Source of the DNA: Demequina silvatica
GTDB lineage: Bacteria; Actinomycetota; Actinomycetes; Actinomycetales; Demequinaceae
Assembly (NCBI RefSeq): GCF_000971215.1
Contig: NZ_BBMA01000003.1
Coordinates: 248,001 to 312,000 of the forward strand
Direction of reading: 5' to 3'
DNA: 64,000 nt
Shown here: in pieces, positions 11,600-51,465 of the stretch
Numbering within the stretch: position 1 is the first letter of the stretch
How the letters are laid out: each line of letters opens with the position of its first letter
Position numbers and translations under genes: made by a program
The notes under the pieces: model-generated
Database searches by the model: none
Told to the model about the DNA's origin: nothing
The model's input: the letters and a program-made list of their open reading frames with translations, nothing else

Positions 11600-11716
11600 A
11601 AGGCGAGGCCCGTCCCGCCCCGTCTCGGCCAATCCCTCTCTGTCTCATCCTGCCTGCTTGATCGGCCACCGCGGGGGCCGCCCGTCCCTGGCCATCCCTC
11701 TCGATCTCTGCCAGTC

Positions 11717-11738
11717 CGTGCACACATTCGTGCACACA
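11717..11738. other. Candidate integrase arm-type sites, left end
   Basis: Two direct copies of CGTGCACACA lie at 11717-11726 and 11729-11738, 118 bp inside attL. The same 10-mer occurs twice near the other end (26356-26365 and 26367-26376). Paired direct repeats flanking both att cores are the expected layout of arm-type sites for a tyrosine integrase. Confidence 0.65.
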
Positions 11739-11762
11739 CCGATCAAGCAACCAGGAGACACC

Positions 11763-11972
11763 ATGGCTGACAACGCCACCCCCAACCCCAGCAGGCTCGC
11801 TGATCTGCAGCGCGAAGCGATGCGGACTCAGCTCGAGCGCGACCCCATCACCGCCGCCCGCGCAGCGCAGCGCGACGGCAAGCCCCTCGCCCACTTCGTC
11901 CGAGTCCAGTGCGACCGGCGCGGCATCGACCCCACCCCGTACCTCGAGCAGATTGCGGGGGAAGACGCATGA
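11763..11972 (+). CDS. Hypothetical protein, 69 aa, first gene of left-end operon
   Basis: I do not recognise this protein. It is charged and rich in Arg/Asp/Gln, with SRLADLQREAMRTQLERDP suggesting an amphipathic helix, and no membrane segment. The ATG at 11763 follows an AGGAGA-type ribosome-binding site (CAGGAGACACC). Its stop overlaps the next start by ATGA. As the gene closest to attL it is probably element cargo or a regulator. Confidence 0.6.
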   Translation: MADNATPNPSRLADLQREAMRTQLERDPITAARAAQRDGKPLAHFVRVQCDRRGIDPTPYLEQIAGEDA

Positions 11973-21610: not shown

Positions 21611-22010
21611 TGCGGGTCCCGTCCTCGCGCGCGTGCGGCTGCGCGTGTATGGAAGTTCGGGAATGTTCCCGTTCCGCTTCTCTCGGGGTGTCTGTGGGGA
21701 TGACGTAGACGGTGACGTCGTAGCCGGCCTTTGCGAGTCGTGCGGCTCGTGAGTAGGCGGTGCGGGGGTCGATGGTGATGCGGCCGCGTGCAGGCTCTTG
21801 GGGGACGTGGACGCTGTAGCTGACGGGTGTGTCTTTGCGGATGCGGCGGCGCATGAGGTCGGTCAATTCGATCGGGGTCCATGCCGCGGGGACGCGGGTG
21901 AACTCGTCGGCGGGGATGCCGTGGCGCTTGAGGAGGCATGCCATGCGGGATGCGCGTTCCCCGTCGGGCGGGATCGTGATGTTGTGGCGTGCGCTCGAGG
22001 CGGTGGTCAT
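21603..22010 (-). CDS. Hypothetical protein, 135 aa
   Basis: The start ATG 22010 is set by a 4-nt overlap with the upstream gene. The N-terminus (ITIPPDGERASRMACLLKRHGIPADEFTRVPAAWTPIELTDLMRRRIRK) looks like a small helical or winged-helix-like fold. A beta/alpha segment (YSVHVPQEPARGRITIDPRTAYSRAARLAKAGYDVTVYVIP) and a charged tail follow. Function unknown; part of the leftward operon. Confidence 0.55.
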   Translation of the reverse strand: MTTASSARHNITIPPDGERASRMACLLKRHGIPADEFTRVPAAWTPIELTDLMRRRIRKDTPVSYSVHVPQEPARGRITIDPRTAYSRAARLAKAGYDVTVYVIPTDTPREAEREHSRTSIHAQPHAREDGTRNE

Positions 22011-22357
22011 CGTCGGACCCCCTGCATGCGGTCGAGGTCGGGCAGCTCGACACGCATGTGCCACGAACAGAGTCCGATGAGGAGCTCGAGGCGAGTGCCG
22101 GCGACCGCGGCGGTGAGCTGCGCGGTCTGGATAGCGGGGTTGAAGGCGGGCCGGCAGCGGTCGCACGTGCGGATCGTGAGGGCGGCGTGATCGAGTGCGC
22201 CGATGGTGAGGGGCGCGATAACCGTCGCGCGTCCGTGTCGGACGGTTGCGCGGCGCGTGGTGCCGATGAGGGCACGGACGCGAGCGGTCGCGATTCGGCG
22301 GAGCCACGGTGAGGGTGTCGTGATCGCGAGGTGCTGTACGGCCGTGGTGGTGGTCAT
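22007..22357 (-). CDS. Hypothetical protein with CxxC and CxxH pairs, 116 aa
   Basis: An Arg/Thr-rich N-terminus is followed by TIRTCDRCRPAFNPAIQTAQLTAA and IGLCSWHMRVELP, a CxxC...CxxH arrangement that could bind zinc. No known domain is recognised. It is coupled to the ATPase gene by an ATGA overlap and may assist it in replication or DNA binding (inference). Confidence 0.55.
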   Translation of the reverse strand: MTTTTAVQHLAITTPSPWLRRIATARVRALIGTTRRATVRHGRATVIAPLTIGALDHAALTIRTCDRCRPAFNPAIQTAQLTAAVAGTRLELLIGLCSWHMRVELPDLDRMQGVRR

Positions 22358-23679
22358 GGGTGCGGCCGTCCGGGGAGGTTGAGGGTGATCTGGTCCCCGG
22401 TGACCTCCCCGCTCCCTATAGGGGAGCGCGGGGAGGACAGGTCAGGTCCCTCCGGGAAGGTTGCGGGAATCTCGGGAACGTAGGCGATTGAGTAGTGATT
22501 CGCGGCATGCGGACCACGTGCGCAGGTGTAGTAGCCGCGTGCGACGCCGAGCTTGAGGGCTTTGCCCTCCTCGCCCTTCGAGAACGACAAGCCGGCCTCG
22601 CGGAGACGCTCGGTGACCTGCTTGCCCGTCGAGCCCGGGTGCTTGCGGAGGATCTCGGTGATGGGCTCGATGAGGGCTTCCTGGCGGCGGTGCGCTGCCG
22701 CGACCTTGCGCGATCCCGTCCCGGCGAGGGAGAGCGTGCGCGTGACGTCGTCGTAGTGCAGCTCGTCCTCGTCGACCAGGACGTCGCGTCCTTCGGCGCG
22801 GAGGAATCGGCGGCCTTCGTCGTCGCGGGTGAGGTAGATGATCGAGTCGGCCCAGTCCTCGAGCGCGGACGATCCGCGTGACCGGTCGGCGTTCCATCCG
22901 GCGTGCGTGGTCAGGACGAGGTCCTTCGCGCCGACTTCAGCGCGTGCGAACGTGTCGAGCTCTGCGAGCCATGCGGCGACCTCGCCGGCATCGTTTTGGG
23001 ACTGGCCGGTGTACGCGCGCCCGAAGGGGTCGACGATGAGTGTCTCGATCTCGAGCTCGCGGAGGCGGGCAGCGAGCTGGTCGCGTGTGCGTCCGGGCTT
23101 GAGGGGACTGGCGACGCCGCGGAGGTTCGCGATCACGAGGAGGTCTTCGATGTCGTCGTCGAAGCCGGCGTCGGCGGCCCATCGTGCGATCTGGTGTCCG
23201 GACACCTCGAAGTTCAGCAGGCCCACGGGTCCGGAGGTGAGGGTGGTTTCGAAGCGGCCGAGGAGGTGCTCGCCGGTCGCGAAGGCTCGCGCCATGTTGA
23301 GGGTGAGGGTGGTCTTTCCGGTCTTGCGCTGCGCAACGATGAGGGTGCCTCCGTTGGCGGGCATGAGGCCCGCCGCGCGCCATGGCGGTTCGGTCGAGTT
23401 CTCGAGGTGCTCGCCGACGGTGGCGATGTCGAGGATGGGCTGCGGGTTGCGGGCGGCTTGGAAGTCGGCGTACGCGCGGCGTGCGTCATCGCGGGTCTTG
23501 AGCTTCATCGCCTCTTCGGCGACTTCAAAGGGGTACTGCTCGGGCTGGCGGAGCTTGTAGCCGGCGACGCTGGCCGGGATTCCCAGGCTCGCGGCGTGCA
23601 TCTGCAGTGTCACGAGGTCGTCGGCCCGCTGCACGGCCGGGGACTGTGTTGCTTGAGGGCTGTCGGGGGCGGCGTTCAC
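22354..23679 (-). CDS. RepA/RecA-like AAA ATPase
   Basis: This 441-residue protein has Walker A AQRKTGKTT at about 117-124 and Walker B TLIVDPFGRAY at about 213-217 (AAA_25 fold). The downstream TTHAGWNADRSRGSSALEDWADSIIYL is the typical sensor segment of RepA-like hexameric helicase-type ATPases. The C-terminal region (RQEALIEPITEILRKHPGSTGKQVTERLREAGLSFSKGEEGKALKLGV) is a winged-helix-like DNA-binding module. Proteins of this class occur in actinobacterial phages and plasmids and probably aid element replication. It is the fourth gene of the leftward operon. Confidence 0.8.
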   Translation of the reverse strand: MNAAPDSPQATQSPAVQRADDLVTLQMHAASLGIPASVAGYKLRQPEQYPFEVAEEAMKLKTRDDARRAYADFQAARNPQPILDIATVGEHLENSTEPPWRAAGLMPANGGTLIVAQRKTGKTTLTLNMARAFATGEHLLGRFETTLTSGPVGLLNFEVSGHQIARWAADAGFDDDIEDLLVIANLRGVASPLKPGRTRDQLAARLRELEIETLIVDPFGRAYTGQSQNDAGEVAAWLAELDTFARAEVGAKDLVLTTHAGWNADRSRGSSALEDWADSIIYLTRDDEGRRFLRAEGRDVLVDEDELHYDDVTRTLSLAGTGSRKVAAAHRRQEALIEPITEILRKHPGSTGKQVTERLREAGLSFSKGEEGKALKLGVARGYYTCARGPHAANHYSIAYVPEIPATFPEGPDLSSPRSPIGSGEVTGDQITLNLPGRPHP

Positions 23680-26434: not shown

Positions 26435-26479
26435 GGTGCCCCCGGCTGGATTCGAACCAGCGACCAACGGATTAGAAGT
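26435..26479 (-). other. attR within the tRNA-Arg gene
   Basis: This is the second copy of the perfect 45-bp repeat. It supplies the 3' half of the intact tRNA plus two flanking bases. The element side of the gene is therefore element-derived, restoring the tRNA after integration. Confidence 0.93.
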
Positions 26480-26509
26480 CCGACGCTCTATCCACTGAGC
26501 TACGGGGGC
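26437..26509 (-). tRNA. tRNA-Arg (anticodon UCU)
   Basis: The minus strand reads GCCCCCG at the 5' end and CGGGGGC plus discriminator A at the 3' end, forming a 7-bp acceptor stem. The D arm (GCTC...GAGC), an anticodon loop CTTCTAA with anticodon TCT, and a T arm with GGTTCGAATCC are all present. The first anticodon-stem pair is a T-T mismatch. The CCA end is not encoded. It is the integration target of the adjacent element. Confidence 0.95.
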
Positions 26510-47198: not shown

Positions 47199-48044
47199 TC
47201 AGGCGCCCGGGAGGACGTCCCCGGACGGCCAGGTCTCGCGGATGAAGTCCGCAACCTCGGGGGAGTGGAGGAGCTCCTCGAGCACCTCGACGCCGGTGTT
47301 GGTGTTGTCCGAGCGCCACACCAGGATGTTCGCGTTCGGGTTGCCCTCGACCTCCTCGACCAGGAGCGCGTCGTCGGTGGACAGGCCGGCCTGGAGGATG
47401 AAGTTGCCGTTGACGAACGCGAGGTCGATCGCGGGGTCCTCGATCTGCTGCACGATCACCTCGGGCTGGTTCTCCACGAAGGTGAAGCCGTGCGGGTTCT
47501 GCTCGTCGGTGAGGTTGATCACGGAGGAGTCGTCCGCGACGTCGACCAGCAGGCCGGCGGACTCGAGCAGGCGCAGGCCGCGCAGCTGGTTCGCGACGTC
47601 GTTGGTGATGGCGATGGTCGCGCCGTCGGGCAGCTCGTCGAGCGAGGCGTAGGTGTTCGAGAACGCCGCGTAGGGCTCGATGTGGACGCCCGCGCCGTGC
47701 TCGAATTCGTAGCCCTTGTCCGCGATCTGCGAGTCGAGGTACGGCACGTGCTGGAAGTAGTTGGCGTCGAGCTCGCCCGAGGCGAGGGCCTCGTTGGGCA
47801 GGACGTAGTCGTCGAACTCGACGATCTCGAGGTCGATCCCGGCATCCGCCGCGAGCTCGGAGTCGATGAACTCGAGGATCTGCGCGTGCGGGATGGGGCT
47901 CGCGCCCACGGTGACGGTGGTGACGTCGCCCTCGGCGGCCGCCGACGACGCGGAGTCGGACGCGTCCGCGCTGCACGCGGCGAGGGTGAGGGTCGCGAGG
48001 CCGGCGAACGCGGCGGTGGCGAGGGGGGTGCGGGTGAGTCGCAT
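47199..48044 (-). CDS. metQ: D-/L-methionine ABC transporter substrate-binding lipoprotein
   Basis: This 281-residue NlpA-family protein has signal peptide and lipobox LTLAACSADAS (Cys at about 24), then VTVGASPIPHAQILEFI, VEFDDYVLPNEALASGELDANYFQHVPYL and AAFSNTYASLDELPDGATIAITND, the MetQ fold. AAGGAGA precedes ATG 48044. Third gene of metN-metI-metQ; it captures methionine at the outer face of the membrane. Confidence 0.93.
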   Translation of the reverse strand: MRLTRTPLATAAFAGLATLTLAACSADASDSASSAAAEGDVTTVTVGASPIPHAQILEFIDSELAADAGIDLEIVEFDDYVLPNEALASGELDANYFQHVPYLDSQIADKGYEFEHGAGVHIEPYAAFSNTYASLDELPDGATIAITNDVANQLRGLRLLESAGLLVDVADDSSVINLTDEQNPHGFTFVENQPEVIVQQIEDPAIDLAFVNGNFILQAGLSTDDALLVEEVEGNPNANILVWRSDNTNTGVEVLEELLHSPEVADFIRETWPSGDVLPGA

Positions 48045-48080
48045 GGGTTTCTCCTTGTGATGGGTGGGAAAGGAAGGGAG

Positions 48081-48761
48081 TCAGCGGTGGTCGGTGCGAC
48101 GCACCAGGGCGTCGCCGATGGCCTGCACCGCCTGGACCAGCAGCACCAGCACCACGAGGACGACGATCATCACCTCGGGCTGATACCGCTGGTAGCCGTA
48201 GTTGTAGGCGAGCCGGCCCAGGCCGCCGCCGCCCACCAGGCCCGCCATCGCGCTGTAGCCGATGAGCGTGACCACGGTGGTGGTGGCGCCCGCGATGAGC
48301 GACGGGAGCGCCTCGGGCAGCAGGACGCGCGTGATGGTCTGGCGGCGGGTCGAGCCCATCGCGTGCGCGGCGTCGGCCTTGCCCGAGTCGACCTCGCGCA
48401 GCGACGCCTCGACCAGGCGGGCGAAGAACGGCACGGCCGCGACGGTGAGCGACACGGAGGCGGCGATCGGCCCGATCGACGTGCCCACGAGCGCGCGGGT
48501 CACGGGGATGAGCGCGAGCATGAGGATCGCGTACGGGATGGACCGGGTGATGTTGACGATGACGCCGGACAGCACCACGTTGACCGCGCGGTTCTCGGCC
48601 ATGCCGCCGCGCTGCGTGACGAACATCGCGACGCCGAGCGGCAGGCCCAGCACCACCGTGAACACGGCGGAGATGCCCACCATCTGGGCGGTCTCGAGGG
48701 CGGCGGGGCCCAGCGCCTCCGTGATGGCGGGGTTGGACAGCAGGGAGTCGATCCAGCTCAT
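48081..48761 (-). CDS. metI: Methionine ABC transporter permease
   Basis: This 226-residue MetI-type permease has five or more membrane helices and the EAA loop VDSGKADAAHAMGSTRRQTITRVLLPEALPSLIAG. Its ATG overlaps the metN stop by ATGA. It forms the homodimeric channel for methionine and related sulfur compounds. Confidence 0.93.
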   Translation of the reverse strand: MSWIDSLLSNPAITEALGPAALETAQMVGISAVFTVVLGLPLGVAMFVTQRGGMAENRAVNVVLSGVIVNITRSIPYAILMLALIPVTRALVGTSIGPIAASVSLTVAAVPFFARLVEASLREVDSGKADAAHAMGSTRRQTITRVLLPEALPSLIAGATTTVVTLIGYSAMAGLVGGGGLGRLAYNYGYQRYQPEVMIVVLVVLVLLVQAVQAIGDALVRRTDHR

Positions 48762-49732
48762 CGGGCCACCTCCTGCGCGCGGGCGCCGGCGTCGGTGAGC
48801 GCGCGCACCAGCGCGTCAGGCGCCACCCCGGGCGGCGCGGCGAGCCGCAGCCGATGGAACGTCACCCCTCCGAACGCCTCGACGGTCCCGGAGACGATGC
48901 GCGGGGCGGCTCCCAGCGCCGCGGCGGCCTGGTCGAGGGCCGGGACCCGCGCATCGTCCACCGCGTCGAGGACGTCGACGTCGCCGCCGGCGGCGTCGCC
49001 CGGCAGGGCGAGCAGGGCCTCGCTGAGCCGGCTGCCGAAGTCCGCGACCACGTCCGCGATCGCGCCGGACTCGACTATCCGGCCGGAGTCCAGGAGGGAC
49101 ACGGAGTCGCAGATGCGGGTGACCACGGACATCTCGTGGGTGATGACCAGCACGGCGAGGCCCAGGCGCTCCTTGAGGCCCAGGATGAGGTCGAGGATCT
49201 CCTCGGTGGTGCGGGGGTCGAGCGCGCTGGTGGGCTCGTCGCACAGGAGCACGTCGGGGTCCGTGGCGAGCGCGCGGGCGATCCCGACGCGCTGGCGCTG
49301 GCCGCCCGACAGCTGCGCCGGGTGCGCGCCCGCCGCCTCCGCGAGGCCCACCAGGCCCAGCAGCTCGAGCGCCCGCTCGCGGCGCTCGCGGCGGCCCACG
49401 CCCGCGATCTCGAGCGGGTAGGCCACATTGTCGAGCACGGTGCGCGAGTCGAACAGGTTCGCATGCTGGAACACCACGCCCAGGCGGCGGCGCGCCTGGC
49501 GCAGCTCCGCGGCGGGGACCGAGGCGAGGTCGACGCCGTCGATCTCGACCGTGCCGGACGTCGGGTGGTCGAGCAGCGCGAGGCATCGCACCAGCGTGGA
49601 CTTGCCCGCGCCGGAGGGGCCGATCACGCCGTGGACCGTGCCGGCCGGGACGTCGAGGCTCACGCCGGCGAGGGCGTGGATGTCGCGGCCGGCCTGGCGG
49701 TAGACCTTGGCGAGGTGGGTGACGGTGATCAA
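48758..49732 (-). CDS. metN: Methionine ABC transporter ATP-binding protein
   Basis: This 324-residue protein has Walker A GPSGAGKST (38-46), signature LSGGQRQRVGIARAL and Walker B VLLCDEPTSALDP. The C-terminal region corresponds to a NIL-type regulatory domain; its linker VDVLDAVDDARVPALDQ carries an extended copy of the dispersed word (48950-48959). The start is TTG 49732 with GAAAGG upstream. First gene of metNIQ, behind a Met/Cys-ended leader peptide. Confidence 0.92.
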   Translation of the reverse strand: MITVTHLAKVYRQAGRDIHALAGVSLDVPAGTVHGVIGPSGAGKSTLVRCLALLDHPTSGTVEIDGVDLASVPAAELRQARRRLGVVFQHANLFDSRTVLDNVAYPLEIAGVGRRERRERALELLGLVGLAEAAGAHPAQLSGGQRQRVGIARALATDPDVLLCDEPTSALDPRTTEEILDLILGLKERLGLAVLVITHEMSVVTRICDSVSLLDSGRIVESGAIADVVADFGSRLSEALLALPGDAAGGDVDVLDAVDDARVPALDQAAAALGAAPRIVSGTVEAFGGVTFHRLRLAAPPGVAPDALVRALTDAGARAQEVAR

Positions 49733-49922
49733 CGCGTGCCTTTCGAGCGGGATCCGCGGTGGATCCGTGGGGATGCGAGCGAGGGTGCGCGCGGGCGTCG
49801 CCGGGCAGGGGGCGGCGGCCCGCGGCGGGAGAGCGAAGGGGGTGCGGGGCGGCCGTCAGCTACCGGGTCGGGGCCCGGGGTCAGGGAAGGCGCGGCGTCG
49901 CGAGGGGTTCAGCTCTGGTGCG

Positions 49923-49997
49923 TCAACACATTCGCATGCACATGCGCGCCGGGGCAGCGAAGTTCGCGCGGGCGGTCGTCATGAGCGAGGTGAACAC
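49923..49997 (-). CDS. Met/Cys-ended leader peptide upstream of metNIQ
   Basis: A 24-codon frame starts at GTG 49997 and ends MCMRMC-stop at 49923; an in-frame ATG at 49982 would give 19 codons. The last six residues alternate Met and Cys (MCMRMC), the amino acids supplied by the downstream transporter. A TACCGT box (minus strand, 50005-50010) ends 7 nt before the GTG, so the mRNA would be leaderless and begin with the leader peptide. About 190 nt of GC-rich, hairpin-capable leader follows before metN. This arrangement fits ribosome-mediated attenuation by sulfur amino acids. Confidence 0.65.
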   Translation of the reverse strand: MFTSLMTTARANFAAPARMCMRMC

Positions 49998-50004
49998 GGG
50001 AGGG

Positions 50005-50010
50005 ACGGTA
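50005..50010 (-). promoter_or_regulatory. -10 box of the metNIQ leader transcript
   Basis: TACCGT on the minus strand, 7 nt before the GTG of the leader peptide. It is back to back with the leaderless promoter of the MFS gene (TAGACT at 50056-50061, plus strand). Confidence 0.5.
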
Positions 50011-50055
50011 GCGCGCGCAGGTCCCGGTCGCCAAATCGGTGTCGGCGCTCGCCAT

Positions 50056-50061
50056 TAGACT
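50056..50061 (+). promoter_or_regulatory. -10 box of the leaderless MFS transcript
   Basis: TAGACT ends 6 nt before GTG 50068. There is no ribosome-binding site, so the mRNA should be leaderless. Confidence 0.55.
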
Positions 50062-50067
50062 CCACCG

Positions 50068-51465
50068 GTGACCGAGCAGATCGACCCCGAGCAGGGCACC
50101 ACCGACCCCGCGACCGCGCCCGCCGAGCCCGAGGTCGCCCGCCGCCGCCTGTCGCGCCACCTGGTGGACATCACCCCGCTCAAGGCGAGCCCCGCGTTCG
50201 CGCGCCTGTGGATCGGCGGCGCGGTGTCCGGCATCGGCGCGTTCATGACCCAGGTCGCGGTGGGCCTCCAGATCCACGAGATCACGGGCTCCACGTTCAT
50301 GGTGGGCCTGGTGGGAGGCATCTCGCTGCTGCCCATGATCGTGGCCGGCCTGTGGGGCGGCATGATCGCGGACGTCTTCGACCGTCGGAAGGTGCTCATC
50401 GCATCGTCCCTGGTGTCCTGGGCCTCGACGCTGGCCCTGGTCGCCCTCGCCTTCTGGGACGTGCACCTCCAGGGCGGCGGCGAGCACGCGCCGGTGTGGC
50501 CGTTCTACCTGGTCACCACCGTCAACGCCGTCGCGACCACGGTGGGCAGCGCGGCGCGCGGCTCGGTGGTGGGGCGCATCCTGCCCGAGCACCTCATCAG
50601 TCGCGCCACCGCCCTCAACGGCATCAGCTTCGGCGCGATGGTCACCGTGGGCCCCGCGCTCGCGGGCGTGCTCGCGGCGGGCGTGGGCCTGCCGTGGACG
50701 TTCGTGGTCGACGCGGTGCTGTTCAGCGCCGGATTCCTCGGGATCTGGATGCTTCCGCCGCTGCCGCGGCTGGGGGAGAAGGTCGACGCGGGCTGGCACG
50801 TGGTCAAGGAGGGGCTCACCTTCCTGCGGCACGCGCCGAACATCCGCATGAGCTTCATCGTCGACATCATCGCGATGACGTTCGGCCGCCCCTATGTGCT
50901 CTTCCCGGCGCTCGGCGCGACCGTGGTCGGCGGCGAGTCCCTTACGGTGGGCGCGCTCACCGCGGCCGGCGCGATCGGCACGCTGCTCACCAGCCTGTTC
51001 TCCGGCCGCATCTCGCACGTCCACCGTCACGGCATCGCGATCTCGCGCGCCATCCAGGTGTTCGGCGCGTTCGCCCTGATGTTCGGCGTGGTCACGCTGT
51101 TCGCCGTGAACGGCGACCACGCGGCCGGACCCGGCTGGTCCGGCACCGACCTGTCGATGCTCGCCCTCATGGCGCTCGCGATGGCGGGCATGGGCGCGTC
51201 CGACGAGGTCAGCGCGATCTTCCGCCAGACCATGATCATCACCGCGGCGCCCGACCAGATGCGCGGCCGCCTCCAGGGCGTGTTCATGGTGGTGGTCACC
51301 GGTGGGCCGCGCATCGGCGACATGTACGCGGGGATCCTCGCGACCGCGGTCGCGCTGTGGTTCCCGCCGCTCCTGGGCGGGATCGTCATCATCGCCCTCA
51401 TCGCGATCCTCACCCGCGCGCAGCGGGCGTGGCGCGAGTACGACGCGCAGTCGCCCACGCCGTAG
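50068..51465 (+). CDS. MFS transporter (MFS_3-type exporter)
   Basis: This 465-residue protein has about 10-12 membrane helices. The motif GLWGGMIADVFDRRKVLIASSLVSW is the loop 2-3 signature of the MFS superfamily, and FAFLRHAPN-like and PDQMRGRLQGVFMVVVTGGPRIGD segments match enterobactin-exporter-like (MFS_3) proteins. The substrate is unknown; export of a small molecule is likely. A GGACGATGCG word lies at 50400 within SSL. It diverges from metNIQ. Confidence 0.88.
   Translation: MTEQIDPEQGTTDPATAPAEPEVARRRLSRHLVDITPLKASPAFARLWIGGAVSGIGAFMTQVAVGLQIHEITGSTFMVGLVGGISLLPMIVAGLWGGMIADVFDRRKVLIASSLVSWASTLALVALAFWDVHLQGGGEHAPVWPFYLVTTVNAVATTVGSAARGSVVGRILPEHLISRATALNGISFGAMVTVGPALAGVLAAGVGLPWTFVVDAVLFSAGFLGIWMLPPLPRLGEKVDAGWHVVKEGLTFLRHAPNIRMSFIVDIIAMTFGRPYVLFPALGATVVGGESLTVGALTAAGAIGTLLTSLFSGRISHVHRHGIAISRAIQVFGAFALMFGVVTLFAVNGDHAAGPGWSGTDLSMLALMALAMAGMGASDEVSAIFRQTMIITAAPDQMRGRLQGVFMVVVTGGPRIGDMYAGILATAVALWFPPLLGGIVIIALIAILTRAQRAWREYDAQSPTP

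Follow-up and report, generated by a model that had tools for sequence, protein, structure and literature searches.

Upstream of the methionine transporter operon of Demequina silvatica lies a short open reading frame that ends in alternating methionine and cysteine codons. The question raised by this locus is whether the frame is a leader peptide through which the supply of sulfur amino acids controls the operon, or whether it has another function or none. The analyses were performed on a stretch of 64,000 nucleotides, referred to below as the window, and on related actinobacterial genomes.

The leader frame and the metNIQ operon

The leader frame is located on the minus strand at 49997-49923 and consists of 24 codons followed by a TGA stop, with GTG as the start codon and (M)FTSLMTTARANFAAPARMCMRMC as the predicted peptide. 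It reads GTG TTC ACC TCG CTC ATG ACG ACC GCC CGC GCG AAC and then TTC GCT GCC CCG GCG CGC ATG TGC ATG CGA ATG TGT TGA, so that the putative sensor codons ATG TGC ATG CGA ATG TGT (M-C-M-R-M-C, 49926-49943) stand immediately 5' of the stop. A -10-like box, TACCGT, is present at 50005-50010 on the same strand, 7 nt 5' of the GTG. The minus-strand reading thus confirmed the 24-codon frame with its MCMRMC end, the box (50010-50005) and the interval 49923-50010 that the initial annotation had given for the leader; the box, the 7-nt spacer and the GTG also support the leaderless-type start proposed there. A scan with the sigma-70 consensus returned no site, and an NCBIfam search with the leader peptide gave no family.

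The genes that come next on the minus strand are metN (48758-49732), metI (48081-48761) and metQ (47199-48044), which agrees with the proposed position of the leader 5' of metNIQ. The TTG start of metN at 49732, preceded by GAAAGG at 49744-49739, is our own reading. The best NCBIfam models for the three genes are MetN, MetI and MetQ; MetI alone passes the curated cut-off (215.2 vs. 212 bits), while MetN and MetQ remain below theirs (298 vs. 499.7 and 138.6 vs. 374, respectively). A divergent MFS gene begins at 50068 and, when inspected by eye, looks leaderless as well, with TAGACT, 6 nt and the GTG at 50068 (50056-50068, plus strand).

Conservation of the leader within the genus

The metN type of the window (84-100% identity) was found in four of the 44 genomes of the genus, hereafter the window clade, and all four carry the box, the 7-nt spacer, the GTG and the MCMRMC end followed by the stop. 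The box reads TACCGT, TACGGT, TACCTT and TAGTTT in the four species, the sensor codons are identical apart from TGT or TGC at the last position, and the alignment contains no indel within the frame. The sequence 5' of the box differs in one species (L004, by eye). The six congeners with a more distant metN (45-53% identity, L005-L010) have no such leader, and the remaining 34 genomes were screened by the exact-end pattern alone.

Conservation of the MCxMC end in relatives, named in the initial annotation as the check on its reading, held in all four close orthologues but not far beyond them. Searches for the exact leader end among 47 genomes of the family and 396 of the order each recovered only these four congeners, and none of 23 named close MetI relatives was flagged with a leader in a screen that has known misses and was complemented by reading five of them by eye (L125, L127, L128, L132 and L138).

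Four of the six loci with the genus's other metN type (L006, L008, L009 and L010, by eye) share a palindrome-like stretch, GATGCC-CCGCC-GGTATC with close variants, approximately 90-115 nt 5' of metN. This stretch is perhaps an operator, and the two metN types may therefore differ in their control.

Within the leader frame, 0-1 of the 25 third codon positions differ between species, while in metN 28-36% of third positions differ in five of the six species pairs and 13% in the closest pair; the difference between leader and metN gave Fisher p values of 0.0017, 0.0003 and 0.0004 for three pairs. Between the two species pairs, the leader shows 6-7 changes that alter an amino acid against one silent change. 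The replacements are confined to the first 18 codons, and the sole silent change is TGT/TGC at the last cysteine codon, so the constraint acts on the nucleotides and the end of the frame and not on the whole peptide. Such a constraint suits an attenuator, although it is not in itself proof of translation.

Chance frame or operator

A chance frame without function would fit the abundance of short frames in general and the lack of protein-level conservation in the first 18 codons. However, in 6.4 Mb of first-order Markov sequence of window composition, read on both strands, 560 leaderless-type frames of 8-50 amino acids were found and none had at least three Met or Cys among its last six residues. 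The real window holds three such frames, one of them with five of six. As the box, spacer, start and end are also kept in all four congeners, and the same form recurs at the same operon in other actinobacteria, a chance origin is very unlikely, and the leader is real, conserved and probably functional. The 17-nt core of the leader end is present in a single copy in the genome. A genome-wide search with a Cys-triplet pattern was uninformative (363 matches vs. 384 for the control).

The frame also contains a near-perfect inverted repeat, GCATG-TG-CATGC, kept in four of four congeners, which could serve as a DNA operator bound by a repressor. This candidate was rejected, as it shows no genome-wide enrichment over control: the exact sequence occurs once in the genome, and allowing at most one mismatch yields 23 matches against 70 for the reversed control. 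The palindrome is missing from Streptomyces leaders and can be explained by the codons themselves, which makes the operator highly improbable.

The untranslated leader

Between the leader stop and metN lies an untranslated leader of 190 nt (49733-49922, minus strand), which is C-rich and G-poor and, by composition alone, a candidate Rho-loading stretch. Its C-over-G excess of 0.253 is reached by 0.06% of the 190-nt segments of the window, and it overlaps the segment with the highest excess of all (49706-49895). The leader has the highest value of its own locus in three of the four species; in the fourth, 1.4% of the segments attain its value. The mean excess of 20 Streptomyces leaders is 0.184, reached by 1.8% of the background. 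A stretch of the kind expected of a Rho-dependent attenuator is thus present between leader and metN, but composition taken alone is weak evidence for Rho. Other segments of the window with a high C-over-G excess, 21751-21940 (minus, 0.253), 22176-22365 (minus, 0.247), 47911-48100 (minus, 0.242) and 11611-11800 (plus, 0.232), are possible Rho sites too.

Two parts of the untranslated leader are conserved in the four-species alignment: a stretch directly 3' of the leader stop, CGCACC-GAGC-GAACCC (49904-49922, minus), and a block at 49779-49829 (minus) that ends in GCGCACCCTCGC (49790-49779). The end of this block, approximately 46 nt before metN, shows weak complementarity to GCGAATGTGT (49935-49926). 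It takes part in the best predicted duplex in two of the four species, and the duplex energies of the four window-clade leaders were no better than those of shuffled sequences (p 0.32-0.42).

No terminator-like site with a GC-rich hairpin and T-run was found in 49600-50200. The Rfam search detected no riboswitch in the window, where its single match was a tRNA (26437-26509), and gave no match at 16 metN loci or at 20 loci from relatives in which no leader had been flagged. Nothing of these kinds, therefore, offers another explanation of the control. The predicted fold of the window leader was no more stable than that of shuffled sequences (z -0.19), and simulated ribosome blocking of the sensor codons raised the accessibility of the metN start in just 5 of 30 leaders, including one of the four window-clade ones. 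These negative results from blocking and folding, together with the excess of amino acid replacements in the frame and the small number of relatives in which the leader was seen, count against an attenuator. The proposal of a Met/Cys attenuator is upheld as regards start, codons, position and conserved end, but no attenuating structure was detected and, as described below, the form is not new.

Met/Cys leaders in other actinobacteria

A class-wide search of 296 genomes gave a MetN-like match in 91 of them, at 95 places, 90 of which were examined. In 26 Streptomyces-type genomes, metN is preceded by TTTACT, a spacer of 6-7 nt and a frame that opens with ATG, for example MTTTSSRTLATEATMTPGARCMCRMCAF; the leader is present in 10 of 10 named Streptomyces loci. 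The alignment of these frames contains three length changes (3, 9 and 27 nt), all of which keep the frame. Shortly 3' of the leader stop an invariant hairpin, CTCGCG-CCCCGAA-GCGAG, was observed (L041-L063, alignment columns ~74-93), which is not in Rfam. A covariance model (R1) built on the Streptomyces leader end and the following hairpin gave a single match, just 5' of metN, in each of 28 of the 296 genomes, 27 of them Streptomyces-type and the remaining one f35. At metN in the four window-clade genomes it gave no match, and its best hits elsewhere in them had E 0.19 or worse.

Other forms of the leader, RVMCR..RMCG, CRRMCGC, GRCRMCR, CCRMRMGRM and MCRRMR, occur in f35 genomes and Nonomuraea, whose leader (L187) reads VNEMCRRMRATGCRAR, while weaker or cysteine-type forms were found in f47 and f36. 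In one f36 genome (L047), a cysteine-type leader, MSRNFGFTRRLAIDLRRHSSALCRWAALTN, lies approximately 145 nt 5' of metN of this operon too, which suggests that a switch between the Cys and the Met/Cys type of leader may occur at metN. The peptides of L047, L077 and L092 were translated by us from the DNA. The f35-type genomes and Nonomuraea also contain a second short ORF between the Met/Cys leader and metN, with a conserved peptide such as MIVPSFVLRRLSHLPFHPGTH or MNCPADTIVLRRLSHLPFPPGTR at seven loci (L187:1890 and L064:1370, both on the plus strand, L069, L070, L072, L074 and L092). Its P-P-G end might pause ribosomes. Two of the seven matched no NCBIfam family, and no family was obtained with three short peptides related to the leader.

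The codon pair CGA-ATG is present in all four window-clade leaders, in all 26 Streptomyces leaders and in three leaders of f35-type genomes or Nonomuraea (L072, L077 and L187), and it is followed by TGY in 4/4, 20/26 and 2/3 of them, respectively; the other f35 leaders have CGC-ATG instead. CGA is otherwise rare: six genes of the window use it for 3 of their 175 arginine codons, and ten Streptomyces metN genes for 9 of 234.

Structured RNA or masking of the metN start

The nucleotide-level constraint with few silent changes, as well as the invariant hairpin and blocks of the Streptomyces leaders, could indicate a structured, riboswitch-like RNA that merely happens to hold a short frame whose codons are not a sensor. 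However, neither Rfam nor the folding of the window leader lends support to such an RNA, the in-frame length changes in Streptomyces speak against it, and stop-adjacent Met/Cys codons recur in sequences that otherwise differ. We regard this explanation as quite unlikely.

A further alternative concerns only the last step of control. In translational attenuation, a model described for mycobacterial polycysteine leaders and also suggested for the LEU element of actinobacteria, the metN start would be hidden by pairing of the sensor codons with nearby leader sequence and released by a stalled ribosome. The Arg-Met-Cys codons of the 26 Streptomyces-type leaders are complementary to a conserved block approximately 15 nt before metN, with 94.6% of cells paired against 3.4-60% in slid controls, and 18 of the 26 have that block as the best duplex site. 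A conserved block is also present in the window clade, with the weaker complementarity described above. On the other hand, covariation in Streptomyces was no better than in shuffles (77 of 500 were as high), the duplex energy was better than that of 95% of shuffles in only 2 of 26 Streptomyces and none of the four window-clade leaders, the start site stayed closed on codon blocking in 25 of 30 leaders, and the window-clade block is at a distance from the ribosome-binding site. This masking model is rather improbable, though less so than the alternatives considered above.

Proposed mechanism

The best explanation of the locus, to which we assign a probability of about two in three, is attenuation of metNIQ by a leaderless sensor uORF. 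Transcription would start at or beside the GTG, and the ribosome would translate the 24 leader codons. Under a shortage of charged Met- or Cys-tRNA, it would stall on M-C-M-R-M-C, next to the stop, and alter the fate of the 190-nt leader in such a way that metNIQ is expressed, at a higher level on starvation. When both charged tRNAs are plentiful, it would terminate and depart, and metNIQ expression would stay low. For the last step, we lean towards Rho-dependent premature termination in the C-rich leader, hindered by the stalled ribosome, over masking of the metN start. This preference is weakened by the geometry of the leader, because the stalled ribosome would cover just the edge of the C-rich stretch. 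If the proposal is true, methionine import is set by the speed of ribosomes on Met/Cys codons, with neither a repressor nor a riboswitch.

Origin of the leader

In the MetI tree, the four window-clade sequences group with four Propionibacteriaceae (fork 97/91) and then with 20 Micrococcaceae-side rows (fork 96/96), none of which was flagged with a leader, and they are separate both from the Streptomyces sequences and from the other MetI found in the genus. As there is no detectable homology to the Streptomyces element and no leader was flagged in the 23 relatives, the form may have more than one origin; independent origin of the window leader is the simpler reading, the alternative being loss in many lines. 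The placement of the window clade on the tree stands, but the four label changes are not a sound count, since the leader screens miss cases (L187 was scored negative, L067 was unflagged though it is in a leader alignment, and L076, L077 and L092 were unflagged and then read by eye) and L038 and L137 were labelled as negative though their upstream sequence is lacking.

A wider scenario is put forward only tentatively. Alternating Met/Cys leaders on metNIQ may have arisen at least twice independently in Actinobacteria, in the window clade and in the Streptomyces and Streptosporangiales-type genomes, and converged on a sensor near the stop with the rare CGA-ATG. A dual Met and Cys sensor with a slow arginine codon would then be preferred, and Rho would act through the C-rich 190-nt leader in the window clade.

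Comparison with known systems

In E. coli, the leader peptide TnaC acts through Rho-dependent termination next to the stop, and it stalls on free tryptophan via the nascent peptide. The window leader would share with tnaC the combination of leader peptide and Rho-dependent termination, while its proposed signal differs, being scarce charged tRNA.

According to PMC1262725, the cysteine leaders of Mycobacterium, P. acnes and B. longum have no terminator hairpin, and Rho was suggested for them; the same paper states that no conserved RNA structure was observed at methionine operons. The window leader resembles them in being short, in having codons for sulfur amino acids close to its stop and in lacking a terminator, but the leaders described there are of cysteine only and precede cys or cbs genes. 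The leaderless polycysteine attenuators of mycobacteria (Canestrari 2020, as presented in PMC9031893 and PMC13236596) likewise have uORF codons that sense amino acid supply and set the expression of a sulfur operon. Those uORFs carry runs of Cys codons, whereas the window leader has two Cys codons alternating with Met. Translational control has been shown for them, as far as these sources describe it, while folding gives no support for such control in the window leader.

The closest counterpart is metL of S. lividans TK24, MSTTSDRTPATEATTTPGARCMCRRMCAF (...GARCMCRRMCAF), published in 2021 as a leaderless frame before metNIQ (PMC8079986). In that report, the leaderless start was mapped and attenuation was proposed, and termination was described as unclear, a typical Rho-independent structure being absent. 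The initial annotation had taken the Met/Cys form on metNIQ to be undescribed; with metL in print, it is not new. By titles and abstracts, no second report of a Met/Cys leader on metNIQ was recognised in the open-access library searched. So far as metL is described in its report, it and the putatively leaderless window frame are both short, have Met/Cys codons near the stop, lie directly 5' of metNIQ and lack a typical Rho-independent terminator. They differ in that the rest of the window peptide is unlike metL, the Streptomyces covariance model misses the window leader, and the MetI lineages are far apart. We consider the window leader to be of the same kind as metL by function and not a demonstrated homologue. 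If it works as proposed, it extends the described kind to a distant metNIQ lineage, and comparing the two dissimilar leaders of this operon would reveal which of Met, Cys and the rare CGA provides the signal, and if Rho serves as the platform.
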